Below, in pieces: positions 19,914-33,336 of a stretch of DNA of 33,455 nt. Below the pieces are notes generated by a model. The model was not told the DNA's origin and ran no database searches. It saw only the letters and a list, made by a program, of their open reading frames with translations. A program made the position numbers and the translations under genes. How positions within the stretch are numbered: position 1 is the first letter of the stretch; every line of letters starts with the position of its first letter. The stretch is from Nitrospirota bacterium (GTDB lineage: Bacteria; Nitrospirota; Nitrospiria; Nitrospirales; Nitrospiraceae): NCBI GenBank assembly GCA_022545705.1, contig JACZQN010000012.1, positions 1 through 33,455 of the forward strand, given 5' to 3'.

Positions 19914-20005
19914 CGTGGAGCTAGGCCAGAAGCGGAAGGCATAAAGCGTCAGGGGTGAGGCGTGACGCGTGAGATGTGGCCACGTCTCATGAGTCTGCAC
20001 TGAAA
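19914..20005 (+). repeat. Stuttering inverted repeat, GCGTG word
   Basis: GCGTG-like words recur about every 7 bases at 19948-19975. A hairpin follows in which CGTGAGATGTGG is answered by CCACGTCTCATG (10 of 12 pairs, almost no loop) at about 19968-19991. Shorter and weaker than the other elements of this type, but built the same way and in the same kind of place, directly after a stop codon. Confidence 0.5.
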
Positions 20006-29454: not shown

Positions 29455-29800
29455 ACGATTTATTGAATCTGCCTTGGGTCAAGGGAAGAGGGTGAGACTC
29501 CCTCGTGGTCCCGCCGCTGTGATTGGGGAAGAAACCCGCTCTAGCCACTGTCCATATGTGTGCAGCGTCCATAGCGTCTATCGCGTTCTGCGTCTGATAC
29601 ATGGACGCAATGACGCGAGCGACGCAACAGACGCTTGACGCGGCGGATGGGAAGGCGCGGGGACTAGAGAGCGATGGTGAAGAGGAGGTAGTGCCGTTGA
29701 GGAAGGGGCGGACGGGCTGACCGATTCGCCGGCTTCTAAATAGTGGCGCTGGTTAGGCCTCCCACCGCGACTCCCATCAGCCAGAAGACCTGCCCGGGCG
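29455..29800 (+). ncRNA. Cobalamin riboswitch 1 (before btuF)
   Basis: An adenosylcobalamin-type aptamer. Core elements in order: GGGAAGAGGGTGAGACTCC near 29476-29495, the B12 box CCGCCGCTGTGA at about 29510, GCCACTGT at 29545, GGGAAGG at 29650, and CAGCCAGAAGACCTGCC at about 29777. The arm between GCCACTG and GGGAAGG holds the GCGTC/GACGC stutter. A long insertion of about 110 bases lies between GGGAAGG and the final element. An intrinsic terminator follows at 29857, so ligand binding probably ends transcription before btuF. Confidence 0.9.
29543..29658 (+). repeat. Riboswitch arm, copy 1 of a 116-base near-identical repeat
   Basis: From AGCCACTG to GGAAGGCGC. Aligns without gaps to 33166-33281 with only about 5 differences, all in two small clusters. 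Inside it GCGTC words (three exact, one GCGTT) at 7-9 base steps are followed by five GACGC words at the same steps, so it can fold as a hairpin. GCGTCCAT and ATGGACGC form one perfect pair. The rest of the two riboswitches is far more diverged. Confidence 0.85.
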
Positions 29801-29856
29801 TAAAGCCGTCTTTCCCTCGAGGGCTGGGGAAAGCGTGAGGGTGAAGAAGCGGGTGC

Positions 29857-29895
29857 AATCCTCAGGGCCGCCAAGGCCTTGAGGATTTTTTATTT
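29857..29895 (+). terminator. Riboswitch terminator overlapping the btuF ribosome site
   Basis: Stem of 13 pairs with one G-U: 29857-29869 with 29875-29887, loop GCCAA, then six T. A strong intrinsic terminator. Its 3' arm contains TTGAGGA (29879-29885), which lies 8 bases before the TTG at 29894, so the hairpin would also hide the probable Shine-Dalgarno of btuF. Confidence 0.85.
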
Positions 29896-30892
29896 GGCTT
29901 CGCAGCATCCACAGACCAGATGGCGGCGAAGGGTTGGAGGGGTTTGCCTGGCTACCGCACTTCTGGTGGCAGGGGTCGGCCAGGCAGCCGCAGGGGAGCA
30001 CGCATCCATGAAGCGACGGCAGCAGGGTATCCTGACCGGAATGCCGTTCATGGCCAACCTGGCCCCGCGCACCTTTGTAGACGATCTCGGCCGAAAAATT
30101 TATCTGGCGAAGCCGCCCACCCGCATTGTCTCTCTGGCACCGAGTATCACCGAAATTCTGTTTGCGATTGGCCTCGATGAGCAGATCGTCGGCGTCACCC
30201 AGTTTTGCAATTACCCGCCTCAAGCCAAAGCCAAGCCGAAGGTGGGATATACCCGTCCGAACCTTGAAACTATTGTGGCGCTCCAGCCCCACTTGATCTT
30301 AGCTCCGAGGGAATATCTGCGCGCCGATATCCTGGACAAATTGGAACAATTGAAGATCCCAGTCTATGTCTTAGAGGCCAAGACCGTCGAGGATATTTTC
30401 TCCCACATCCGGACGATTGGGCGGATGGTCAATCGTTCCGAGGCTGCCGATTCCTTGGCCGCAGAAACGCGTCGGCGCGTCTCCGACGTCAAGTCCCGCA
30501 CCGAGAACCTCACCCGCCGCCGACTCCTCTATGTCATTAATACACACCCGTTGGTTACAGTCGGACCAGGGAGCTTCATCGATCATCTCATTGAGCTTGC
30601 TGGCGGGTCGAACGTGGCGGCGCACGCGCCGACTCCCTATCCGAGGCTCAGCATGGAAGAAGTCCTGAAAGGAGACCCTGAACTGATTCTCTTTCCGGTG
30701 GGTGGGGCCGAGGGGATTCCTGAGAGCGAGCAGGAACTCTGGCGCCGCTGGACGACAGTCTCGGCGGTCAAACATGGGGAGTTCCATCACATTAATCCAG
30801 ATCTTTTGAACCGTCCCGGTCCGCGCATCGCCGAAGGATTGGAAACCCTCGCCAGAATCATCCATCCGGAAGTGTTTAAGGACCGAAACTGA
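29894..30892 (+). CDS. btuF: Vitamin B12 ABC transporter, substrate-binding protein
   Basis: Periplasmic protein that delivers cobalamin to BtuCD. A signal peptide (RWRRRVGGVCLATALLVAG, cleavage near QAAAG) is followed by the class III binding-protein fold: RIVSLAPSITEILFAIGLDE, VGVTQFCNYPPQAKAKPKVG, LETIVALQPHLILAP, then the long hinge helix and a C-terminal lobe with VTVGPGSFIDHLIELAGGSN. This is the BtuF pattern more than a siderophore one, and the B12 riboswitch upstream supports it. No ATG or GTG precedes the signal peptide in frame; TTG at 29894 has GAGGA at the right distance and is my choice. The first gene of btuFCD; three bases separate its stop from the TTG that opens the btuC frame. 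Confidence 0.88.
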   Translation: MASQHPQTRWRRRVGGVCLATALLVAGVGQAAAGEHASMKRRQQGILTGMPFMANLAPRTFVDDLGRKIYLAKPPTRIVSLAPSITEILFAIGLDEQIVGVTQFCNYPPQAKAKPKVGYTRPNLETIVALQPHLILAPREYLRADILDKLEQLKIPVYVLEAKTVEDIFSHIRTIGRMVNRSEAADSLAAETRRRVSDVKSRTENLTRRRLLYVINTHPLVTVGPGSFIDHLIELAGGSNVAAHAPTPYPRLSMEEVLKGDPELILFPVGGAEGIPESEQELWRRWTTVSAVKHGEFHHINPDLLNRPGPRIAEGLETLARIIHPEVFKDRN

Positions 30893-30897
30893 TCTTG

Positions 30898-32058
30898 ATG
30901 AGCATCTCGGGCGCGCAAAAAAGGGGTGGTCAGAAGGAGGTCGTGAGTGAGGTAATGGCGCCTGGCGTGCAGGCATCTTGTGCCGGGCCGAAGGTCAAGC
31001 CCTGGCAAGAGAAATCAGTTCTCACAGTCAGGCGATGGGTGGCCACGTTGCTGGGCCTAGGAGCGGCGGGTCTGCTCGTCATGATCGGCTGTCTACAGTT
31101 CGGTGCGGAAGACATCGGCTTTTTCGAAGTGGCAAGCATCCTGGGCCGGGCGGTACAGAGTTCACATCCGAGCCAGGCGTCGAGCGAGACGGCGCAAGTT
31201 ATCCTCTTGCAGGTCAGACTCCCAAGGGTGTTGTTAGGGTTCATGGTTGGTGGGTGCCTAGCCGCCGTCGGAGTGGGGCTCCAGGCTTTGCTGCGAAACC
31301 CGCTGGCGGATCCCTACGTACTCGGTATCTCGAGTGGCGCCGCGCTAGGGGCTGCTCTGGCTATCCTTCTGGGGATCGGCACGACTATCTTCTCCATCTC
31401 GACACTGCCCCTGTTTGCGTTCGCGGGAGGGCTGCTCTCCCTTGTCGTGGTCTATCGGATCGCGGCCTCGTATGGGCGTCTTCCCGTGCACACTCTCCTG
31501 TTGGCCGGAATCATTTTGAACGCCATCTTCACGGCCTTGATCATGTTCATCACTTCGATAATGGGTCCGAATCGTGCGTTCGGGTTGATGTCCTGGCTCA
31601 TGGGCACGTTGACAGCACCAGACTACCCGGCTCTTGGCGTGCTCGCCATCTACCTCCTTGTGGGAGGCCTGATCCTCTTCCGGCAGGCGCGGGCGCTCAA
31701 TCTTTTGACACTCGGAGAGGAGTCTGCGCGATCCCTCGGGGTCGAGGTGGAAAGAGCGAAAAAAGTCGTGTTCTTCACGTCAGCGCTTTTGACTGGGGCG
31801 GTGGTGTCGGTCAGCGGGATGATCGGCTTTGTGGGAATGCTCATTCCCCACGCAGTCCGGATGGTTATCGGAGCTGATCATCGACTGCTCCTGCCAGCCT
31901 CAGCCGTCGTCGGGGGCACGTTTTTGATGGCCGCCGACACAGTGGCCCGGACGATCATGGCCCCGGCCGAAATCCCGGTAGGGGTCGTCACAGCACTCGT
32001 GGGGGGACCGGTGTTTGTGTACTTGCTCATGTACCGGAAAGGCGGGCTCGCGGTATGA
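30898..32058 (+). CDS. btuC: Vitamin B12 ABC transporter, permease
   Basis: FecCD-family inner-membrane permease, about 386 residues with some ten membrane helices. The hallmark stretch RLPRVLLGFMVGGCLAAVG is followed by GLQALLRNPLADPYVLGIS. The cytoplasmic coupling helix region ARSLGVEVERAKKVVFF and the late motif GFVGMLIPHAVRMVIGADHR are present. The first 45 residues are polar and unlike the family, so the real start may be further in: ATG 30898, GTG 30943 (AAGGAGG only two bases before it) and ATG 30955 are all in frame. Ends in a 4-base overlap with btuD. Together with BtuF and BtuD it forms the importer. Confidence 0.88.
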   Translation: MSISGAQKRGGQKEVVSEVMAPGVQASCAGPKVKPWQEKSVLTVRRWVATLLGLGAAGLLVMIGCLQFGAEDIGFFEVASILGRAVQSSHPSQASSETAQVILLQVRLPRVLLGFMVGGCLAAVGVGLQALLRNPLADPYVLGISSGAALGAALAILLGIGTTIFSISTLPLFAFAGGLLSLVVVYRIAASYGRLPVHTLLLAGIILNAIFTALIMFITSIMGPNRAFGLMSWLMGTLTAPDYPALGVLAIYLLVGGLILFRQARALNLLTLGEESARSLGVEVERAKKVVFFTSALLTGAVVSVSGMIGFVGMLIPHAVRMVIGADHRLLLPASAVVGGTFLMAADTVARTIMAPAEIPVGVVTALVGGPVFVYLLMYRKGGLAV

Positions 32059-32939
32059 CTCGCCAGGCCTACGCTGTCGAGCAGATCAGGTTTAGCTATC
32101 GGGATGGCCGCAACGGTGCGCCGGCCTGGGTCTTGGACGGTGTGAGCTTTGAGGTCGCTGAGGGCGAGATTCTCGGAGTGATCGGGCCCAATGGCTCTGG
32201 GAAAACGTCGCTGCTCAAGCTGATGACCAAGGTGTTCCAGCCTCAGGCAGGTGCGGTTCACCTCTTCGGGCATGAGCTTGCTGGGATGCCACAAGACGCG
32301 GTGGCTCGGGTCGCGGCTCTGGTGCCTCAGGATAGCCAGCAGATTTTCCCGTTCACAATTGCTGAGATGGTTCTCATGGGCCGATTCCCACATCGTCGTC
32401 GCGGTGGGGTGTTACTGGGCTTAGGATGGGAAAGGCCGGAAGACCTCAGGCTCGCAGAGCACGCGATGGTGGAGATGGACGTCGCGCATTTGAGCCATCG
32501 GTCCATCGCTGATGTCTCGGGCGGCGAGCGCCAGCGGGCGATCATTGCCCGTGCGCTCACGCAGGAACCGCGAGTGCTGTTGCTGGATGAGCCGACGGCC
32601 TTTCTGGACCTTAACCATCAACTGGATATCTGTCGCATTCTGGGACATCTGAATGAAGAGCGGGGGCTGACGGTTATTTTGGTGTCCCATGATCTGAACC
32701 TTGCGAGCCAATACTGTGACCAGCTCCTACTCTTGAAAGATGGTCAAATTTTTCAGATCGGCACGCCGGAGGAAGTCATCCGACCTGAAATCCTTGAGGC
32801 AGTCTATGGGTGCCAAGTACTCGTGGATTGCCATCCGGTGACGGGCCTCCCGCGCGTGACGTTACCTGGCCGGACGGTAGCCGGCGGGGCTGACAAGCGT
32901 GCACATGACCAAGCTGATATCCAGAAGCCGGCAAGCTGA
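32055..32939 (+). CDS. btuD: Vitamin B12 ABC transporter, ATPase
   Basis: ABC ATPase of the BtuD/FecE type, 294 residues. Walker A GPNGSGKT is at residues 44-51, the signature is DVSGGERQRAIIARAL, Walker B is VLLLDEPTAFLD, and the switch histidine is in LVSHDLNLASQYCDQ. It starts in an ATGA overlap with btuC. The C-terminus after LPRVTLPGRTVAGG is a hydrophilic tail (ADKRAHDQADIQKPAS) encoded by a degenerate GCTGACAAG word; the TGA stop itself is part of one such word. The normal domain probably ends about 20 residues earlier. Function is supported by position and the riboswitch. Confidence 0.9.
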   Translation: MTRQAYAVEQIRFSYRDGRNGAPAWVLDGVSFEVAEGEILGVIGPNGSGKTSLLKLMTKVFQPQAGAVHLFGHELAGMPQDAVARVAALVPQDSQQIFPFTIAEMVLMGRFPHRRRGGVLLGLGWERPEDLRLAEHAMVEMDVAHLSHRSIADVSGGERQRAIIARALTQEPRVLLLDEPTAFLDLNHQLDICRILGHLNEERGLTVILVSHDLNLASQYCDQLLLLKDGQIFQIGTPEEVIRPEILEAVYGCQVLVDCHPVTGLPRVTLPGRTVAGGADKRAHDQADIQKPAS

Positions 32940-33001
32940 CAAGGCAGAAAGCTGACAAGATCCGGATTTTCGCTTGTGAGCCTGCTCGCTTGTTTGCCGA
33001 A
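32889..33001 (+). repeat. Stuttering inverted repeat, GCTGACAAG word
   Basis: GCTGACAAG-like words (32889, 32934, 32950 and partial copies between) run from the 3' end of btuD through its stop codon. The complement GCTTGT and GCTCGCTTGTTTGCC follows at 32973-33000. The arms pair imperfectly, GGCAAGCTGACAAGGC against GCCTGCTCGCTTGTTTGCC. Same word family as the element after ribH. Confidence 0.65.
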
Positions 33002-33082
33002 GAAAGCGGGATGGATTTGGGACCCGATCCTTCCGCGTTGAGCTGGGGGTCCATGAGTCAATCAACACGAGAGGGAAGATTA

Positions 33083-33325
33083 GAGGATAGGCCGCCAGCG
33101 ACGGGGAAGATGGTGCGAAGCCATCACGGTGCCGCCACTGTAAGCGGGGAGTGATCCTGCAGGCGAGCCACTGTCCGTGTGCGTGCAGCGTCCATAGCGT
33201 CTATCGCGTTCTGCGTCTGATACATGGACGCAATGACGCGACTGACGCAACAGACGCTTGACGCGGCGGATGGGAAGGCGCAGGGGAGCGAGGATCCGCG
33301 AGTCAGGAGACCCGGCTGTCGGACG
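33083..33325 (+). ncRNA. Cobalamin riboswitch 2
   Basis: Second adenosylcobalamin aptamer with better consensus than the first: GGGGAAGATGGTGCGAAGCC at 33103, B12 box GCCGCCACTGTAAGCGG at about 33131, GAGCCACTGT at 33165, GGGAAGG at 33272, and AGTCAGGAGACCCGGC at 33301. It shares the 116-base arm with riboswitch 1. No terminator follows; instead a small hairpin covers a Shine-Dalgarno, so output is probably translational. It controls the partial gene at 33365. Confidence 0.92.
33166..33281 (+). repeat. Riboswitch arm, copy 2 of the 116-base repeat
   Basis: Gap-free counterpart of 29543-29658 with about 5 differences, including the same GCGTC/GACGC stuttered hairpin. Lies between the GCCACTG and GGGAAGG core elements of riboswitch 2. 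Confidence 0.85.
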
Positions 33326-33336
33326 ATTCCACTGAG

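Follow-up and report, generated by a model that had tools for sequence, protein, structure and literature searches.

The closest described systems to the element reported here are of two kinds, namely structured RNAs with variable outer helices and short repeats that are scattered through bacterial genomes. Cobalamin riboswitches carry an optional P8-P10-P11 domain (Barrick and Breaker, PMC2258182), and the tRNA-Leu(UAA) group I intron of Nostoc and Calothrix has a P6b stem-loop known in two repeat classes, Class I (TDNGATT) and Class II (NNTGAGT) (PMC4476775). Dispersed heptamers have been described as TAACTGA in Beggiatoaceae and cyanobacteria (PMC4679880), as GGGNATC in Xanthomonas and Nostoc (PMC4692102), and as heptanucleotide elements in Geobacter metallireducens (PMC2700814), while repetitive extragenic palindromic (REP) elements are 20-40 bp long, carry at one end an unpaired tag (GTAG or CGTC) and include CGTC-tagged palindromes (PMC3733652). 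In a literature search of limited scope, we found no report of repeat insertions in riboswitches. Here, we analyzed a stretch of 33,455 nucleotides (nt) of a Nitrospirota bacterium (assembly GCA_022545705.1, contig JACZQN010000012.1, positions 1 to 33,455), hereafter the window, in which two cobalamin riboswitches, RS1 and RS2, share a nearly identical outer arm. We consider it likely that this arm is a hairpin of a dispersed class seated in a dispensable helix, that the RS2 arm was copied to RS1, and that both processes, seating and copying, occur family-wide. The features on which the argument depends are as follows.

29459..29811, + strand: RS1, cobalamin riboswitch upstream of btuF (RF00174, 62.2 bits, E 2.9e-13)
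33079..33334, + strand: RS2, cobalamin riboswitch (RF00174, 80.9 bits)
29543..29658, + strand: RS1 copy of the shared arm, comprising the helix base GCCACTG...GGGAAGGC and the repeat hairpin (hairpin z -4.5)
33166..33281, + strand: RS2 copy of the shared arm, probable donor (86% identical to the RS2 arm of the relative G047)
29565..29641, + strand: GCGTC/GACGC stuttered hairpin in the RS1 arm (repeat matches)
33188..33264, + strand: GCGTC/GACGC stuttered hairpin in the RS2 arm (repeat matches)

In the Rfam covariance-model search, both riboswitches exceeded the RF00174 gathering score of 31.5 bits and covered positions 1-189 of the model. The two arms align without gaps and differ at 5 of 116 bases (95-96% identity), whereas the cores outside the arm are only ~61% identical, which bears out the first-pass annotation in both of its observations, a near-identical 116-base arm and divergence of the rest. 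To place these values, we compared about 200 riboswitch arms pulled out by motif search from about 100 genomes of relatives; named relatives retrieved with the BtuC of the window genome are Nitrospira sp. The core identity of the window pair is ordinary, as RS1 and RS2 cores of different genomes are on average 63% identical. The arms are far outside the corresponding range, as the cross-genome RS1-RS2 arm identity has a mean of 0.545 (standard deviation 0.064, maximum 0.88), and the real pair also exceeds unit-shuffled versions of the window arm (mean 0.61, maximum 0.73). A recent duplication of the whole riboswitch was considered and rejected, as the core of RS1 is no more similar to that of RS2 in the same genome than to that of RS2 in other genomes, and the layout in which a B12 riboswitch pair surrounds btuFCD (RS1-btuFCD-RS2) recurs in most relatives.

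In silico, each window arm folds as a single hairpin, with z -4.5 and -6.5 relative to dinucleotide-shuffled sequences. The strongest repeat period is 9, followed by 7, and the GCGTC units are 7-9 nt long. The alignment to Rfam, as proposed at first reading, places the arm at about positions 108 to 135 of RF00174, bounded by GCCACTG and GGGAAGGC, and the 116-nt match takes in the helix base of the riboswitch itself, GCCACTG...GGGAAGGCGC. In the optional P8-P10-P11 domain, the arm is the terminal helix, probably P11. Within the window, GCGTC/GACGC is found in the two arms and otherwise as a single pair within btuF, at 30469. The window's sole further repeat of such kind is a short array of GTGANNN x3 at 19955-19972. 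The contig stops 174 bases past the RS2 arm and assemblers break at repeats, which raises the suspicion that the assembler of this metagenome-assembled genome put one arm into the other riboswitch. We regard such an artefact, which the first-pass annotation had also named as a danger, as extremely improbable: the copies differ at 5 positions, both arms pair internally and are each flanked by their own intact core, the RS2 arm is present at 86% identity in the independent genome G047, and a like pattern is seen in other genomes.

Arms shared between the two riboswitches of one genome are not confined to the window genome (G000, 0.95), as within-genome RS1-RS2 arm identity is 0.87 in G078, 0.84 in G007 and 0.82 in G052, with a weaker case in G015 (0.74). 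The cores in the arm-sharing genomes are unrelated (0.61-0.62 in G078, G007, and G052), so the homology is restricted to the arm. The polarity of the copying event can be read from G047. The RS2 riboswitches of the window genome and G047 are 86% identical in the arm, 83% in the 5' core and 86% in the 3' core, and this equal divergence indicates that the arm is old in RS2 and has come down by plain descent. The btuF-linked RS1 of G047, on the same contig as its RS2, has an arm of only 16 nt. Since G047 shares the arm in RS2 while its RS1 arm is short, RS2 was probably the donor and RS1 the recipient in the window genome, as judged from these sequences. Recent gene conversion, one of three explanations offered at first reading, is thus the best supported for the near-identity of the window arms, with a polarity from RS2 to RS1.

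The second of these explanations, in which the same mobile hairpin element was inserted twice independently at the same site of both riboswitches with no recombination between them, has some basis, as like hairpins are dispersed in the window genome and the site is repeatedly occupied in relatives. Moreover, G047 has a third cobalamin riboswitch (L274, G047:C141, reverse strand) before exbB-exbD-tonB, which carries its own, different GCGTC arm and indicates that arms of the same dialect also arise separately. Nevertheless, we judge double insertion to be unlikely for the window pair, because the RS1 and RS2 arms match over the full 116 nt including the helix base of the riboswitch, while the dispersed GCGTC loci match the arm over 16-69 nt only (73-100% identity) and none at full length; nor does the assembly, a 2.17 Mb draft that is 94.6% complete, contain a recent master copy. 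The insertion idea therefore stands in one part only: the arm belongs to a dispersed class of stuttered hairpins that is repeatedly found at this site in relatives, whereas gene conversion fits the window pair better.

Across the relatives, the lengths of RS1 arms are bimodal, 6-29 nt or 63-110 nt, and RS2 arms fall into the same two groups with two lengths between them (51 nt, and 49 nt, which is probably mis-parsed). Long arms are present in 56 of 98 RS1 and 49 of 97 RS2; among the 91 genomes with both riboswitches, 29 have both arms long, 23 only that of RS1, 18 only that of RS2, and 21 none. Apart from two cases of 62 and 83 nt, arms in distant phyla measure 10-35 nt, and the long arm is therefore not a conserved part of the aptamer; that candidate explanation was rejected, and the initial view of the arm as something other than a normal aptamer part stands. 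Nearly all the long arms form one hairpin (median z -5.3), with a median of 72% of bases pairing left to right, and their self-match is 0.55 at shifts of 7 and 14 and about 0.2 at other shifts, which is indicative of a period of 7. They are usually built from degenerate 7-mers such as GTGANNN, CGTTANN and TCAGNNN, and the dialects observed are CGTGAA/CGTTAA, GTGAC/T, GCTGA and GCGTC. The strand polarity is uniform, with GTGA on the 5' side in 48/48 arms, TCAG in 19/19 and GCGTC in 5/5. The long arms could not all be sorted cleanly, as 27 of 109 fit no dialect when the simple, hand-chosen motifs are used.

Degenerate tandem units whose number varies between relatives could conceivably mean that, with no element involved, a short P11 loop grew in situ in each riboswitch through replication slippage. 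This is very improbable, since slippage cannot yield 96% identity at two loci, there are no RS1 arms between 29 and 63 nt, full dialect switches occur between near-identical cores, and one hairpin order is partly common to riboswitch arms of another class, the thiamine pyrophosphate (TPP) riboswitches, in other genomes. The turnover behind those dialect switches is extensive. In 51 of 102 pairs of the same switch whose cores are at least 0.93 identical, arm identity falls below 0.65, near the level of unrelated arms; RS1 of G084 and G110, for example, are 0.97 identical in the core and 0.50 in the arm. On a quick btuFCD tree, there are at least 21 changes between long and short arms for RS1 and at least 19 for RS2, and the dialect of long RS1 arms hardly follows the tree (18 changes against a shuffled mean of 18.6). 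Arms have been replaced wholesale and repeatedly in the relatives, with one repeat class taking the place of another at a single site as in the Nostoc P6b. The comparison of B12 riboswitches across relatives, suggested at first reading, thus makes the window pair a single instance of an arm exchange that runs through the family. A further possible swap concerns the RS1 arm of G097, which is similar to RS2 arms in G043, G103 and G109; the RS2 arm of G097 (L246) contains a run of N.

The third explanation of the first-pass annotation was selection on the arm itself, such that a function of the arm (e.g., binding of a protein or RNA partner, pausing, or RNA stability) needs the same hairpin in both RNAs. 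The high occupancy of one helix, the narrow length range (about 63-110 nt), the fixed polarity, the strong hairpin folding and the absence of arrays from RNase P RNAs (0/25) would all agree with selection. On the other hand, close relatives with near-identical cores use unrelated arms or an arm of 15 nt, and most genomes with two long arms show RS1-RS2 similarity at background level. Because near-identical cores bear unrelated arms and most long pairs are unalike, sequence-specific selection is unlikely, and we assign a low probability to selection as the cause of the shared arm; selection for a generic long helix is possible.

The hairpins of the arms belong to a class that is found elsewhere in the same genomes. 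GTGANNN x4 is present in 101 of 118 genomes, with up to 188 occurrences in one genome in which the reversed pattern has 0, and GCTGANN x3 reaches 120 per genome with 0-1 in reversed controls. GCGTC arrays have 24 matches in the window genome and 139 in G047 (reversed controls 0-1); those of the window genome occupy the two riboswitch arms and five other loci (C2 twice, C57, C109 and C125). From 40 inspected loci with 53 arrays, 37 arrays are outside open reading frames of at least 100 amino acids, though such frames cover 83% of the inspected loci, and 36 carry both orientations, some of the loci having been chosen because both orientations were seen. The sampled arrays with two orientations are mostly 52-130 nt long with several units per side, and the dispersed hairpins keep the same fixed polarity as the riboswitch arms. 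In a 74-locus context sample, many of the single matches in repeat-poor genomes are chance matches in genes.

Other structured RNAs were affected to a limited extent. The TPP riboswitches examined comprise 29 loci from repeat-rich genomes, and in three of them (L424 and L430 in G016, L426 in G047) the P3 arm holds a CGTTA-dialect hairpin of 89-97 nt. These hairpins are up to 0.73 identical to the B12 arms of other genomes, and for two of them the identity slightly exceeds that of unit-shuffled controls. The three arm-bearing TPP riboswitches (RF00059) score 50.4, 45.7 and 45.1 bits, below the Rfam cut-off of 54.3, and standard annotation would therefore miss them. Repeat arrays were found in none of the 25 RNase P RNAs. 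A general colonization of structured RNAs was thus rejected; from the TPP and RNase P counts, the hairpins enter some dispensable riboswitch arms and not structured RNAs at large.

The course of events that we propose begins with a member of the dispersed class of stem-loops of degenerate short repeats, which would have come to cap a dispensable outer helix. Because the arm folds on itself as a closed hairpin, it can probably lengthen the helix while the ligand-binding core remains undisturbed. The common ancestor with G047 would already have had the arm in RS2, and in the lineage of the window genome a non-reciprocal recombination event may then have copied the RS2 arm into RS1, leaving the RS1 core untouched. 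We infer gene conversion or template switching for this step, for which GCCACTG and GGGAAGGC at the arm edges could serve as homology. Arm replacement with occasional copying between RS1 and RS2 would recur throughout the family. Dispersed copies may be the source of new arms. Genomes with a dialect in their arms hold more dispersed arrays of it (p 8e-7 for GTGAC/T, 4e-4 for GCGTC and 0.011 for GCTGA), p values which ignore the relatedness of the genomes. This is the first of several points that weigh against our reading. Independent phylogenetic pairs mostly agree with the association (4.2 for and 1.0 against for GTGA) and are too few for significance, and for none of the replacements was a specific dispersed locus identified as the donor. 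The 3' part of the third riboswitch of G047 resembles RS1, which slightly weakens the claim that the ancestral RS1 arm was short, and the genus is represented by one draft genome at assembly level. Although neutral tolerance is the simplest account of the presence of the arms, their occupancy is far above that of random intergenic insertion, which simple tolerance does not explain. That one helix is occupied so often points to preferential insertion, to recirculation through gene conversion, or to selection for a long helix. A bolder and rather doubtful possibility is that the outer B12 helix is a preferred exchange site, with hairpins circulating among riboswitches (between B12 riboswitches, perhaps between B12 and TPP) and a genome-wide pool, via targeted insertion or selection for any long rigid helix.

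The remaining features of the locus are the following.

29779..29790, + strand: RS1 B12 box AGCCAGAAGACC (sequence, Rfam alignment)
29665..29776 (approximate), + strand: second insert, present in RS1 but not in RS2, lying between arm and B12 box and not repeat-built
29857..29895, + strand: terminator-like hairpin and T-run, candidate RS1 expression platform (suggestive only)
29879..30892, + strand: btuF-like periplasmic binding protein (PF01497, 115 bits)
30895..32058, + strand: btuC-like FecCD permease (PF01032, 298 bits)
32055..32939, + strand: btuD-like ABC ATPase (PF00005, 107.8 bits)

The btuF, btuC and btuD genes lie between the riboswitches, which are 3.6 kb apart. In both G047 and Nitrospira sp. 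S2bin.17, RS2 is followed by a gene for a TonB-dependent receptor; the window contig stops at 33455. With B12 boxes AGCCAGAAGACC in RS1 and AGTCAGGAGACC in RS2, each in a cobalamin-related gene context, the two are, on the sequence criteria of score, B12 box and btu/TonB context, ordinary members of RF00174. Terminator-like sites are no commoner here than in shuffled sequence. The longest btuF frame opens within the terminator-like hairpin (29879-30010), and the real start is probably the ATG at 30008. The interval between GGGAAGGC and the B12 box is 130 nt in the window genome, 125 in G002, 98 in G007 and 29-34 in nearly all other relatives; the second RS1 insert is about 100 nt long, and among the examined relatives only G002 and G007 have one there.

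In these natural regulatory RNAs, a single helix is swapped like a cassette while the sensor core is still more than 93% identical, and a direction can be given to a probable copying event between two riboswitches. Whether the arms tune folding or are neutral passengers becomes testable, and the findings caution that Rfam scores fall for riboswitches with arms of this kind. If the outer helix is indeed a preferred exchange site, this would be modular cassette exchange within a natural RNA sensor. Repeat-built peripheral helices, described in an intron of cyanobacteria, are also extended to a different phylum, where they occur in two classes of riboswitch.

Compared with the described systems, the arms are most like the Nostoc P6b (PMC4476775), in that, across the family, a peripheral helix of a structured RNA is made from degenerate 7-nt repeats on both sides, and in that unrelated repeat classes, two in the intron, swap repeatedly while the stem is kept though its sequence differs. 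They are built like P6b and are no members of it, as the host RNA is RF00174 (RF00059 in G016 and G047) and not the trnL intron. The P6b host is a self-splicing cyanobacterial intron, whereas the arms reside in at least two riboswitch loci per genome (B12, also TPP), come in four or more dialects, show copying from one locus to another, and have dispersed counterparts demonstrated in the genomes that carry them; the window units are 7-9 nt and not strictly 7, although the arms of the relatives have period 7. With the dispersed heptamers (PMC4679880, PMC4692102, PMC2700814), the class shares 7-base units at many, mostly intergenic, loci. The published heptamers are mainly direct arrays, whereas many here are inverted into hairpins of fixed polarity and sit in riboswitch arms. 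With REP elements (PMC3733652) they have in common that they are palindromes scattered between genes and can be transcribed into hairpins, but as multi-unit stems of about 60-110 nt they lie outside the 20-40 bp that defines REP. Compared with the ordinary RF00174 riboswitch (PMC2258182), the difference lies in the terminal helix, which a hairpin built of repeats has extended to about 100 nt.

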